Shown piece after piece: positions 2,567-13,224 of a stretch of 15,306 nt of DNA. The stretch covers positions 1 to 15,306 of the forward strand of contig DQVD01000001.1 of assembly GCA_015661935.1 (NCBI GenBank), written 5' to 3'. The translations under genes were made by a program, and so were the position numbers. Numbering within the stretch: position 1 is the first letter of the stretch; each line of letters opens with the position of its first letter. The DNA comes from Desulfocapsa sulfexigens. GTDB lineage: Bacteria; Desulfobacterota; Desulfobulbia; Desulfobulbales; Desulfocapsaceae. The notes beneath the pieces were generated by a model, which searched no databases, was not told the origin of the DNA, and was given only the letters and a program-made list of their open reading frames with translations.

Positions 2567-3193
2567 ATGTTCTTTATTCAATTTCTCAAATCATCCATTG
2601 GAAAGAAATGGATCATGGCCTGCAGTGGCTTTTGTCTGATTCTCTTCCTTTGCAGTCATGCAGCCGGAAATGCAACTCTGTTCAACTCTATACCACTTTT
2701 CCAGGCCTATGCGGATCAACTGCACAGTCATCCCCTGATCATTTCGGTTTTAAGTAAAGCACTGTCTCTGGTCTTTGTAATTCATACAACGACTGGAGTG
2801 TTGCTCTTTCTGCAGAACCGTAAAGCAAGAAGTACGGGATACAAGGTACAAAAAAGGGCGGTTAAATACTCACAGGCCTCAAGAACTATGATCTTCAGCG
2901 GACTCTTTATCCTGCTTTATGTTCTGGCTCATACCTATGCTGTCTCCTTTGGTGACCACGCAACAATTGGCCTCACCATTTCCTATCTGTTTAGTTCTCC
3001 TCTTGTGGTACTCTTTTATATCACTTCCTTCATCGTGCTTGCCATTCATCTAAGCCACGGTTTCTGGTCAATGCTGCAGACATTTGGTGTAAATCATCCC
3101 AGGTACAATAAACTGATAAGAAATTTAACGTATATCGTCCCCATATTTTTTCTTCTTATTTTCAGTGCCATCTCCCTTCTTTTTATTTTTTGA
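2567..3193 (+). CDS. sdhC: Succinate dehydrogenase/fumarate reductase cytochrome b subunit (dihaem, five-helix type)
   Basis: This 208-residue, strongly hydrophobic protein has five likely membrane helices (about residues 15-35, 60-82, 108-128, 142-165 and 187-207). It is the single anchor subunit of type-B succinate:quinone oxidoreductases, which hold two b haems and pass electrons to or from menaquinone. Candidate axial haem ligands His31, His73, His122 and His161 fall in four helices. Their spacing (42, 49, 39) is close to that of the Wolinella FrdC ligands (44, 93, 143, 182), recalled from the literature. The ATG at 2567 has only a weak ribosome site. The gene is followed after 23 nt by the flavoprotein gene in the order C-A-B, as in Geobacter-like and Bacteroidetes-like operons. 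The complex may work in either direction, so frdC is an equally valid name. Confidence 0.88.
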
Positions 3194-3216
3194 ACAGGAA
3201 TTTAACAGGTACACTC

Positions 3217-5145
3217 ATGGAACTTAAATCCAATGTCCCCGAAGGCCCTTTGGCCGAAAAGTGGGACAATCATCGTTTTACCTCAAAACTTGTAAACCCT
3301 GCGAATCGTCGTAAACACTCAATTATTGTTATTGGAACAGGTCTTGCCGGAGCGTCTGCTTCTGCAACGCTTGCTGAGCAGGGATATGAAGTAAAGACAT
3401 TTTGCATTCAGGACAGCCCGAGACGTGCTCATTCCATTGCTGCCCAGGGTGGAATAAACGCAGCAAAAAACTATCAGAATGATGGCGATTCCATTCAACG
3501 TCTTTTCTATGACACCATTAAGGGTGGCGATTTCAGATCTCGTGAAGCCAATGTATATCGCCTGGCCCAGGTCAGTAATAACATTATAGATCAATGTGTT
3601 GCACAGGGTGTCCCCTTTGCCCGTGAATATGGTGGAACCCTTGCCAACCGCTCTTTTGGTGGTGCACAGGTTTCAAGAACATTTTACGCACGCGGCCAGA
3701 CAGGACAACAGCTTCTACTCGGTGCCTACTCAGCGCTTTCGCGCCAGATCAAAACCGGAAAAGTTACCATGCATACTCGTAAGGAGATGATGGAACTGGT
3801 TCTTGTTGACGGAAAGGCTCGCGGCATTGTTACACGAGATATAATTACCGGAAAACTTGAAACGTATTCAGCTGATGCCGTGATTCTAGCCACCGGCGGC
3901 TATGGAAACGCCTATTTTCTTTCCACCAATGCCATGGCTTCAAATGTAACAGCTGCCTGGCGGGCACATAAAAAAGGCGCTGGATTTGCTAACCCCTGTT
4001 TTGTACAGATCCATCCCACCTGTATTCCGGTTCACGGCAGTTTTCAATCAAAACTCACCCTCATGAGTGAGAGTCTTCGTAATGATGGCAGAGTCTGGGT
4101 TCCCACAAAACCGGGTGATACAAGAAGACCGGGTTCAATTCCTGAAGATGAGCGCGATTATTATCTCGAAAGCAAATATCCCGGTTTTGGAAACCTTGTA
4201 CCTCGTGATGTTGCATCCCGAAATGCAAAAGAACAGTGTGATGAAGGAAAAGGTGTGGGCACAACCAATCTTGCTGTCTATCTTGATTTTGCAGAGGCAA
4301 TCAGCAGGGATGGCGAAGCTACAATCCTCAGGAAATATGGAAATCTTTTTCAGATGTATGAAAAGATAACCGACTCCAACCCTTTGCGCGAACCAATGAT
4401 GATCTATCCCGCAGTTCACTACACCATGGGTGGGCTTTGGGTTGATTATAATCTGATGACTACAATCCCGGGATTGTTTGCCATTGGAGAATGTAACTTC
4501 TCAGATCATGGAGCCAACCGCCTGGGTGCAAGTGCCCTTATGCAGGGACTCGCGGACGGATATTTTATTATTGGAACCAGTATAGCCAGCTATCTGGGTT
4601 CCACAAAACAGGATGCTGTGGACAGTGATCATCCACAGTTCTCAGATGCAAAAAAACAGGTTCAGGGTCGTATCGACAAACTCCTGGACTGCAATGAAAG
4701 CGGCCCGGATGGAAAGCTCACCGTCGACGAAATCCACAAAGAGCTTGGCCTCCTGCTCTGGGATCATTGCGGCATGGCAAGGAACAAAGAAGGGCTTGAA
4801 AAAGCATTGACTGAACTTCCAGCCATTCAGGAAAAATTCTGGAACAATGTTTATATTCCAGGTACTGGTGAAGAGCTCAATCAATCCCTCGAACGAGCTG
4901 GCCGCCTTGCTGATTTCCTTGAATTTGCAGAGATAATGATCCTTGACGCACTGAATCGGGAAGAATCATGCGGCTGTCATCTTCGGGAAGAAAGCCAGAC
5001 AGAAGACAATGAAGCCAAGCGTGATGATGCCGGATACAGCCATGTTGCAGTTTGGGAGTACCAGGGAGATAGAGGCGCACCAAAACTCCACAAAGAGCAA
5101 TTACTCTTCGAAAATGTTACTCCAAGCCAGCGAAGCTATAAATAA
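3217..5145 (+). CDS. sdhA: Succinate dehydrogenase/fumarate reductase flavoprotein subunit
   Basis: This 642-residue protein is the catalytic subunit interconverting succinate and fumarate with covalently bound FAD. Visible are the dinucleotide-binding [10 protein letters not shown] (residues 40-49), the flavin-attachment region [13 protein letters not shown] with His72 the likely covalent ligand, HPTCIPVHG and ESLRNDG in the substrate region, PRDVASR with the likely catalytic Arg, HYTMGG, and [18 protein letters not shown] near the FAD C-terminal site. Length and motifs fit the Bacteroidetes/Desulfobacterota type that pairs with a single cytochrome b. The ATG at 3217 has AGG 8 nt upstream. 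An in-frame TTG at 3190 overlapping the sdhC stop is a less likely start. The stop codon TAA (5143-5145) lies inside the left copy of a target-site duplication made by the element that follows, so the insertion left the reading frame intact. Confidence 0.94.
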
Positions 5146-5305
5146 TGTAACTATTCGGTGGCACCCGAATTTGGCCAAACCACCGTACTGTAACTGTTTA
5201 GGAGTACCCCATATTCGTTCATTTGAACCTTCGAAGCGTACTAGTGATACTCGAGAAGATTCAAATGGACGTAGATGGAGTGCTCCTGAATAGTTACTAA
5301 ATAAC
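5139..5305. mobile_element. MITE-like non-autonomous element between sdhA and sdhB, with its target duplications
   Basis: A 151-bp non-coding segment (5147-5297) starts with GTAACTATTC and ends with its exact reverse complement GAATAGTTAC. It is flanked by TAAATAAT (5139-5146) and TAAATAAC (5298-5305), an 8-bp direct repeat with one mismatch. The left copy includes the sdhA stop codon. Removing the element and one repeat restores a 14-15-nt sdhA-sdhB spacer, normal for this operon. Ends beginning GTAA together with 8-bp duplications are features I associate with IS66-family elements, so it may be an IS66-related MITE. That link is inference. There is no transposase and no plausible ORF inside. 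Confidence 0.78.
5190..5297. repeat. Long imperfect palindrome (43-nt arms) within the sdhA-sdhB element
   Basis: The left arm is 5190-5232 and the right arm 5255-5297, with a 22-nt loop. Aligned by hand without gaps, 35 of 43 positions are complementary and four more can form G-U pairs in RNA. The left arm begins GTAACTGTTT, a diverged copy of the element end at 5147. The left flank of the element (5147-5189) is also exactly 43 nt, begins with the same motif, and contains the palindrome TTTGGCCAAA (5170-5179). The element therefore looks like three end-like units in the order direct, direct, inverted. Transcribed, it would form a strong hairpin in the sdhCAB message. Confidence 0.8.
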
Positions 5306-5319
5306 AGAGACTTTTTATT

Positions 5320-6075
5320 ATGAGCACAACAAGTATTAACCTCAGCCTTGAAATATGGCGTCAAAAAGACTCCAAAGCAAAAGGCGATTTTGAAACCTAT
5401 AAACTAACTAATATTTCTACGGATATGTCATTTCTGGAAATGCTCGATGTCCTGAATGAACAGCTTACCCGTGAAGGAAGTGATCCGGTGGCATTTGATC
5501 ATGACTGCCGTGAAGGTATTTGTGGTATGTGCGGGGCTGTAATCAACGGCATTGCCCATGGTCCAGAACCCGAAACCACGCTTTGTCAACTCCATATGCG
5601 GCATTTTAACGAAGGAGACACGTTGGTTATTGAACCATTTCGCTCCCGCGCCTTCCCCATCCATAAAGATCTGGTCACTGACCGCAGTGCGCTTGACAGG
5701 ATTATTCAGGCCGGTGGCTATGTCTCTGTCAACACTGGAGGGACACCAGACGGCAACTCGACACCAATTCCTTCTGCCACTGCAGAACTTTCTATGGATG
5801 CCGCATCCTGTATAGGTTGCGGCGCCTGCGTTGCAAGTTGTCCAAATGGTGCAGCCATGCTTTTTACCGGTGCAAAGATTTCTCAATTAAGCTTATTACC
5901 CCAGGGGCAGCCGGAACGCAAAGAACGTGCCATGGCCATGGTAACGGCAATGGACAAAGAGGGATTTGGAAACTGTACCAACGAGCGGGAATGTGAGGCT
6001 GTCTGCCCCAAAGGAATATCAATACGGAATATTGCGAGGATGAACAGGGAATTTGTGAAAGCTTCATTTTTTTGA
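5320..6075 (+). CDS. sdhB: Succinate dehydrogenase/fumarate reductase iron-sulfur subunit
   Basis: This 251-residue protein relays electrons between the flavoprotein and the cytochrome b subunit through three clusters. The N-terminal plant-ferredoxin-like [2Fe-2S] domain has Cys63, Cys68, Cys71 and Cys89. The C-terminal domain has [12 protein letters not shown] (Cys164, Cys167, Cys170, Cys174) and, further on, Cys219, Cys225 and Cys229. By analogy with the E. coli enzyme, 164/167/170/229 bind [4Fe-4S] and 174/219/225 bind [3Fe-4S]. All expected ligands are present, so the subunit looks functional. Its ribosome site is weak (AGAGA, about 10 nt upstream). It is now 174 nt from the sdhA stop because of the inserted palindromic element, so coupling to sdhA translation is probably lost. 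It is the last gene of the operon. Confidence 0.93.
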
Positions 6076-6083
6076 TAAAAAAA

Positions 6084-6115
6084 CTTAGGACTTGGTGATA
6101 ACTACGAGTCCTTAG
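6084..6115. repeat. Short two-ended relic of the 12750-12952 repeat family; possible sdhB terminator stem
   Basis: Nine bases after the sdhB stop, TTAGGACTTGGTGATAA matches 16 of 17 bases of one end of the large element at 12750-12952 (read from its right side). CGAGTCCTTAG (6105-6115) is the exact inverse of the first 11 bases of its other end. The two ends are almost joined, with the internal palindrome absent. The ends can pair (AGGACT with AGTCCT), so this may also act as a transcription terminator stem, although no T-run follows. Confidence 0.55.
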
Positions 6116-12749: not shown

Positions 12750-12952
12750 CTAAGGACTCGGCGATAAATAACCTGAACTTTCCAATTCGCAACTGCACCA
12801 CATCTCGGAGTCTGCGCTTACCTCAGTCGATTTTATATTTTCACAATCCTCACGTAGCCAGCTACGCTGCGGGTGTGAAAATATAAAATCGACTGAACCT
12901 GCAGCACATTTGCGACTGGAAAATTACACGTTATTTATCACCAAATCCTAAA
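12750..12952. repeat. About 200-bp palindromic repeat element upstream of ispH (MITE/REP-like)
   Basis: The two ends are imperfect inverse copies: CTAAGGACTCGGCGATAAATAAC on the left against TTAGGATTTGGTGATAAATAAC read inward from the right, given here as short end motifs. The homology continues through TTTCCA and TCGCAA blocks, with about 17 extra bases in the left arm. Next comes a perfect 23-bp inverted repeat (12823-12845 with 12874-12896), and within its loop CGTAGC-CA-GCTACG (12853-12866). The whole could extrude as a cruciform or fold as one long RNA hairpin. There is no ORF or transposase, and no clear target duplication. A reduced relic of the same family lies at 6084-6115. Confidence 0.75.
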
Positions 12953-13224
12953 AATAAACTTCTACCTCTGAAGATGTCAATAATACCTACAGTACTCTTC
13001 TCTTTTATTGAACAAACTTTTTGCATTTTTGTTTTTTATTTGGGTTTTATTTGCTATGGTATACAGCTTAGTACCTTACAGAACAATTTCTTGTTTTTTT
13101 TCAAAGAAATTTTCTGATAAAGCACTTATCCAGTGACTGCCTTTCTTCCTGAACAGGGTTAGTAAGATCAAGCTATAGGTAGAATTCAGTACTCATTACT
13201 TCTTCCAAAAAGGAATACTTTTTC
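12953..13224. other. AT-rich intergenic region upstream of the alcohol dehydrogenase
   Basis: This is the rest of the 492-bp gap 12733-13224. It is AT-rich with T-tracts and no credible ORF. A hairpin with an 8-bp AATTTCTT/AAGAAATT stem (13085-13111) has a T-rich loop. A promoter for the dehydrogenase should lie here, but no good sigma-70 or sigma-54 match was found. AAGGA (13210-13214) is the likely ribosome site, about 10 nt before the ATG. Confidence 0.4.

Follow-up and report, generated by a model that had tools for sequence, protein, structure and literature searches.

A 151-bp hairpin insert between sdhA and sdhB of Desulfocapsa sulfexigens, probably an IS66-type MITE, belongs to an element family found across the Desulfobulbales

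We analyzed a 15,306-nt stretch of a draft genome of Desulfocapsa sulfexigens (435 contigs, 78% complete; family Desulfocapsaceae, order Desulfobulbales), hereafter the window, whose SdhA, SdhB, and SdhC products were all three confirmed with NCBIfam profiles. Reading of the sequence placed a 151-bp non-coding insert (5147–5297) between sdhA and sdhB (Table 1). As an initial annotation made from the letters alone had described, the insert has inverted ends, starting with GTAACTATTC and finishing with GAATAGTTAC, and is bracketed by an 8-bp target duplication, TAAATAAT on the left and TAAATAAC on the right. The same annotation put the sdhA TAA inside the left duplication. Indeed, the 3′ end of sdhA reads AGC TAT AAA TAA with the stop at 5143–5145, and the duplication comprises the last base of the Tyr codon, the Lys codon, the stop and one further base. 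The terminal inverted repeats had been recognized correctly but measured at 10 bp: the end of the family is 12 bp long (GTAACTATTCAG), and in the window copy the A at position 11 is missing from the left side, which explains the shorter count. No transposase gene lies in the insert, 151 bp being too short for one, and a 94-aa ORF and an 87-aa ORF cross it from outside. Since the left side retained the final codon of sdhA with its stop and the right side the sdhB leader, both proteins are intact, in agreement with the claim that neither had been altered.

Table 1. Features at the sdhA–sdhB junction of the window
Feature	Position	Strand	Basis
sdhA, succinate dehydrogenase/fumarate reductase flavoprotein	3190..5145	+	NF005749, TIGR01811
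Left target-site duplication TAAATAAT	5139..5146	.	sequence; empty site in G001
Left terminal inverted repeat GTAACTATTC (family form GTAACTATTCAG; one base lost)	5147..5156	+	
Left module, lineage-variable, predicted small hairpin GGTGG...CCACC	5157..5189	+	
Inner copy of end GTAACTGTTTAG, pairing with right end	5190..5201	+	
Core palindrome / long hairpin; most widely matched part across the order	5190..5297	+	
Right terminal inverted repeat (GTAACTATTCAG read on the − strand)	5286..5297	-	
Right target-site duplication TAAATAAC	5298..5305	.	same 8 bases once in G001
sdhB, iron-sulfur subunit (ATG at 5320)	5320..6075	+	NF005746

To assess the state of the junction before insertion, we compared the window with its congener G001, in which the junction TATAAATAACAGAGATTTTCTATTATG carries a single TAAATAAC, a 15-nt spacer and no insert. 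The window minus the insert and one duplication aligned with G001 ungapped over 216 bases, 180 of them identical, consistently with the proposal that removal of the insert leaves a short normal spacer, and the sdhB start codon with its preceding 14 bases resembles the uninterrupted junction. Because G001 carries TAAATAAC, the last base of the left duplication probably changed after insertion. Empty sites in relatives and sharing of the site among them had both been suggested as checks on mobility. G001 provides the empty site for the window's copy, the only one for which it was demonstrated, and the element occupied just 1 of the 16 junctions readable among 19 sdhB loci of the genus (spacers judged by eye), namely that of the window. 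Several other relatives have longer, unrelated sdhA–sdhB spacers. Those of G011 and G006 (loci L044 and L047) show TTAGGTTTTGGG-like repeats where the window has the element.

Searches from the own genome up to the phylum revealed a widespread family. The own genome gave 11 match rows: one for the window, nine for as many further places, and one that repeats a place from those nine on the opposite strand. At E <= 0.001, 17 of 20 genomes of the genus had matches (196 rows, reverse-strand repeats counted), as did 31 of 93 in the family. A consensus query matched 98 of 257 genomes and 39 of 69 genera of the order, in a search that scored at most three candidates per genome and whose weakest matches span part of the element. 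Eight of 395 genomes in a phylum sample drawn from inside and outside the order matched, seven of them, including the own genome, from the same order; the sole match from outside it was marginal, at 22 bases. Named plasmids (72,556 records) and phages (50,697 records) yielded no match to the element. Collectively, these data define an order-wide element family.

The flanks of the copies were read in three sets of loci. For the first set, 80 loci were fetched and four IS loci excluded, leaving 76 in addition to the window; 72 had a recognizable end pair, and in 69 the outermost pair had at most two mismatches per end. The eight bases flanking these 69 copies matched at 8/8 in 39, at 7/8 in 10, at 6/8 in 7, and at 0–5 in 13, identical flanks being the commonest state in the family, whereas 4692 mismatched flank pairs used as a control reached 8/8 in 0.06% and 7/8 in 0.34%. 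Two of the 39 perfect copies (L144 and L145) are identical, inverted and on one contig, and may represent one event. Eight of the 13 poorly matching copies are 106–108-bp pairs with only the inner end recognized. Taken as a candidate transposition end, this inner repeat gave at most 5/8 flank matches in all 56 readable pairs (104–110 bp), and so does not look like one. In the second set (80 loci, ends recognizable in 45 and in none of the other 35), the 43 complete flanks matched at 8/8 in 16, at 7/8 in 9, at 6/8 in 6, and at 2–5 in 12. The third drew its 40 loci from the order's other families, and for these the end pair with the best flanks was picked, a choice that favors matches: 34 copies with first-type ends scored 8/8 in 21, 7/8 in 6, 6/8 in 1, and 1–3 in 6, the remainder being five copies with a second end type, described below, and L461, without readable ends. 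The target duplication is therefore of constant length, 8 bp, across the three sets. The 49 first-set duplications with at least 7/8 matches are 80% A+T, as compared with 56% in their flanks. Copies at nine further places of the own genome and many in relatives thus answer to the multiple insertions with different 8-bp repeats that the initial annotation had proposed to look for.

Copy length was 150–153 bp in 49 of the 69 first-set copies, and two shortened copies, L081 (92 bp) and L085 (76 bp), kept both ends and 7/8 duplications. With a crude ORF caller, one of the 56 first-set copies with flank matches of at least 6/8 fell inside an ORF. Where both neighboring genes of such copies read in the same direction by the same crude calling, orientation was even (17 same, 19 opposite); as the copies have no orientation preference, no cis role in mRNA is visible.

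Other repeats occur in and around the window. A second intergenic palindromic element (12750–12953) contains nested inverted repeats, 12753–12795/12907–12949 and 12823–12858/12861–12896, and probably stands for a second mobile repeat family, since the own genome gave ten further match rows, which lie at nine other sites. Directly after sdhB, TTAGGACTTGGTGATAACTA (6085–6104) is 90% complementary to 12932–12951 and is perhaps a partial or solo end of this family. A repeat at 13074–13162, CCTTACAGAACAATTTCTTG...CCTGAACAGGGTTAG, has similar forms at own-genome loci L083 and L178, that of L083 lying within a copy of the 151-bp type. A GGAGTCTCG..CGCTTACCTGGG-like stretch inside element copies L080, L081, L120, and L122 (two genera), with a similar form at 12807–12824 in the second palindromic element, is perhaps a still smaller insert.

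We now turn to the possible source of the transposase. The initial annotation had assigned the element to an IS66-like type from its GTAA ends and 8-bp duplication, and had proposed a full IS with matching ends as a check. G001 harbors such an IS, 1728 bp long, whose ends (GTAACTATTCAG..CTGAATAGTTAC) are the same 12-bp ends as those of the element. It is present in three complete copies with an identical transposase, encoded by one long ORF on the coding strand (470 aa), that is, a single gene, which scored 288.9 bits against NF033517, 'IS66 family transposase' (cut-off 180), and 156.5 bits against PF03050 (cut-off 23.1). One of the three copies, L148, has ATTGCTTC on both flanks as an 8-bp duplication, and the flanks of L147 and L064 lack matching 8 bp. 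G001 contains 24 end-like sites, several at contig edges, which suggest about a dozen IS copies. G027 has a related IS of 1730 bp with one internal stop, and G053 one of 1712 bp; both genomes belong to other genera of the family. The ends of these ISs are the same and their 8-bp duplications perfect, GCCCACAC at L158 and ATTTGTTT at L159; in L148, L158, and L159 alike, the ends start with GTAA and an 8-bp duplication is present. In the own genome, a contig edge carries a transposase tail of 26 residues, 85% identical, together with the IS end GTAACCATTCAGCG, and there are two further IS-like ends; no intact IS copy was found in this 78%-complete draft. The case for an IS66 helper is weakened by an 8-bp match limited to one of the three G001 copies and by the failure to find an intact copy in the own genome.

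Beyond the 12-bp end, no resemblance to the IS was seen in the window's element. In G006, three distinct copies (L329, L376, and L382) have their first 20–22 left-end bases in common with the own-genome IS end, four others share 17, and the rest fewer. In the element-rich genomes G002, G013, G014, and G016, no match to the G001-type transposase was detected, and G014 had no IS-sized pair of matching ends. Four IS66 loci (L165, L189, L190, and L208) were rejected as window-type helpers, their proposed ends starting with GTAACTACTC, GTAACCG, GTAAGCG, and GTAAACG, respectively, and most IS66 loci scanned yielded no end pair. At L156 (G013:C325), an IS66 transposase gene is accompanied by two small ORFs and an adjoining extra 284-aa ORF.

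The same core also occurs with other ends, for example GTAACCGTTCACCGGG...GGTGAACGCTTAC, in five genomes (L452–L455 and L460). Four of these copies were noticed for want of first-type ends, whereas L460 had been misread with them; all five, when read at these other ends, have 8/8 duplications. In this second type, the right end has changed in step with the inner repeat, so that the pairing between them is preserved. A 2.46-kb IS66 locus (L184) in G047, a genome outside those five, carries the exact 16-base GTAACCGTTCACCGGG at both ends, with no duplication visible. On its sequence, the second end type is IS66-like, and we infer that the element core switched ends.

We then assessed the hairpin itself. 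With DNA parameters, the insert has a folding energy of −30 kcal/mol; its shuffles average −12.9 (z = −5.8), and none of 200 folds as well. Across 49 full-length copies, standard pairing filled 93.6% of the cells of 45 register pairs on the + strand, as compared with 80.5% on the − strand and 37–47% in slid registers. Both sides had changed in 17 of the 45 pairs, versus 9.7 in shuffles, none of 500 being as high. Of 113 full-length copies, 109 folded better as the + strand with RNA parameters (48/49, 31/34, and 30/30) and 110 with DNA parameters; as both give the same advantage, RNA is not singled out. Because copies are related, pair changes were counted on trees by parsimony, averaging random resolutions. 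In 122 copies, changes from Watson–Crick pairs to G.U versus A.C numbered 50.1:8.1 on internal branches, which stand for lineages still copying, and 85.5:53.0 on terminal branches, which stand for single, perhaps decaying, copies, that is, ratios of about six and 1.6 (Fisher p = 0.0007). Three disjoint sets gave 18.2:1.0, 13.5:1.8, and 21.0:1.3 internally and 29.1:16.0, 35.0:22.0, and 23.9:18.0 terminally (internal–terminal difference, p = 0.013, 0.071, and 0.0013). In the left module of 83 copies, C>T plus A>G versus G>A plus T>C amounted to 44:22 on internal and 96:59 on terminal branches; this module folds too, and is thus no clean neutral control. The internal-branch excess in the hairpin over the left module reached p = 0.003 in the first 49 copies, 0.09 in the second 34, and 0.11 in all 83, and p = 0.006, 0.0005, and 0.003 on three trees of the first set. 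One-strand selection on the hairpin is likely, a grade set by the milder bias of the same kind in the left module and by an excess that is significant in the first set only. Rfam covariance models gave no match to the element at E up to 5, and a known RNA family was discarded as a candidate.

Given the 8-bp duplications and the 12-bp ends identical to those of a congeneric IS66-family IS, the insert is very probably an IS66-type MITE that a transposase of the IS66 family mobilizes in trans; the single-gene ISBst12 group is the most likely origin of that enzyme. The duplications, the empty site, the dispersed copies and the terminal repeats shared with the IS also argue for the real transposition event claimed by the initial annotation. 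Two other origins fare poorly. A regulatory element long fixed in the sdh operon would fit the position between two operon genes and the strong fold, but a single occupied junction out of 16 in the genus, the empty site in G001 and the many dispersed copies speak against it; the last two contradict it, and we regard it as scarcely credible. Little more credit is due to a relative of single-strand transposons (IS200/IS605 type, PATE-like) or an attC/REP-like element. A strong hairpin kept on one strand would suit this type, and PATEs are likewise short, non-coding and palindromic; however, the element has both terminal inverted repeats and 8-bp duplications, which PATEs lack in the available text of PMC3119063, and membership in the IS200/IS605 type or among PATEs is thereby contradicted.

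Other alternatives leave the IS66-type MITE in place and concern what the hairpin does. The hairpin may be a mere by-product of palindromic origin in an ordinary MITE, and the G.U excess the outcome of founder effects and a strand mutation bias. This possibility, which touches the hairpin part only, deserves serious though less than even credence: the left module is biased in the same direction on internal and terminal branches, the excess over it is significant in the first 49 copies but not in the second 34 or in all 83, and copy orientation is even. Yet a single mutation bias should equalize internal and terminal branches, contrary to the difference observed (50.1:8.1 versus 85.5:53.0), and double-sided changes in 17 of 45 pairs were matched by none of the 500 shuffles. 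Alternatively, the element may be functional, a structured RNA or single-stranded DNA spreading with IS66-type ends, whose + strand hairpin acts in trans or during transposition; this reading is compatible with the IS66-type MITE and goes beyond it. In its favor are the better-folded + strand in nearly all full-length copies, the covariation, and a core conserved across the order alongside a left module that varies and a second type of end. Against it weigh the lack of an Rfam match at E up to 5 and of a promoter-like site in the insert, a copy count inflated by shared ancestry, and the equal advantage obtained with DNA parameters, and we consider it rather unlikely.

For the IS66-type MITE, the following course may be envisaged. 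The transposase would bind the two outer ends, cut or copy the element, and insert it where AT-rich, mostly intergenic DNA has been opened by a staggered 8-bp cut, which in this case would have fallen on TAAATAAC at the end of sdhA. The core hairpin would be a conserved passenger with at least two kinds of ends, which the spreading lineages would have kept on one particular strand; this strand-specific retention suggests a role in propagation for that strand, as RNA or single-stranded DNA. We tentatively extend this, with about as much reserve as for the by-product account, to an order-wide selfish hairpin that might require its + strand as RNA or single-stranded DNA and behave as a satellite, switching helper by exchanging its ends to match the IS66-subgroup transposase of the host. 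As to the host, neither a sigma-70 promoter consensus nor a terminator was found in the window's insert. The likeliest effect would therefore be that the operon stays unsplit and its transcript gains a hairpin-rich spacer of 159 extra nt. With an sdhB start and leader like those of G001, a tolerated insertion in a working operon appears the likeliest state.

Two questions become directly testable with this family, which adds an order-wide distribution, a covarying hairpin core and a second end type to the IS66 guess: whether a non-autonomous element can switch helper through replacement of its ends, and whether a transposon moved by a DDE enzyme needs its hairpin on one strand. Its many natural insertions also offer material on how operons tolerate a strong hairpin between subunit genes.

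Among known systems, the closest to the putative helper is ISDge4, a member of the ISBst12 group of the IS66 family, which is defined by a single gene; in the portions available of PMC12898284, ISDge4 has one 449-aa gene, ends GTAACTGCTCAGCA/GTGACTACTCAGCA and an 8-bp direct repeat, and its movement is 'copy-and-paste' in the authors' words. The G001-type IS is alike in its single gene, its ends GTAACTATTCAGCG and its 8-bp duplications, whereas the window's element has no transposase gene and resembles the IS at the ends only. The openly readable literature sampled, with subscription papers mostly outside it, describes no IS66-type MITE, which makes novelty provisional. MITEPsy1 and MITEPye1 are likewise short, non-coding and provided with the ends of a resident IS, MITEPsy1 having been observed transposing and MITEPye1 folding into a long stem; as far as the accessible parts of PMC3189936 and PMC11578231 go, their ties are with ISPsy2, whose duplication is 4 nt, and with ISs of the IS1182 family rather than with IS66. 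Haloquadratum MITEs offer a precedent for terminal bases alone being common with the helper transposon, and some moved with no functional helper copy found (PMC3119063); they are archaeal and from one species, and the available text describes for them neither an order-wide core nor a second end type. In Geobacter uraniireducens, the Chunjie MITE, compared here through part of its published description, is 178–235 bp long and likewise described from one species. The bacterial MITEs compared are, in the sources at hand, known from one species or a few related strains, in contrast to the one hairpin core found here in 39 of 69 genera, with its pairing kept by double changes and with two types of ends.
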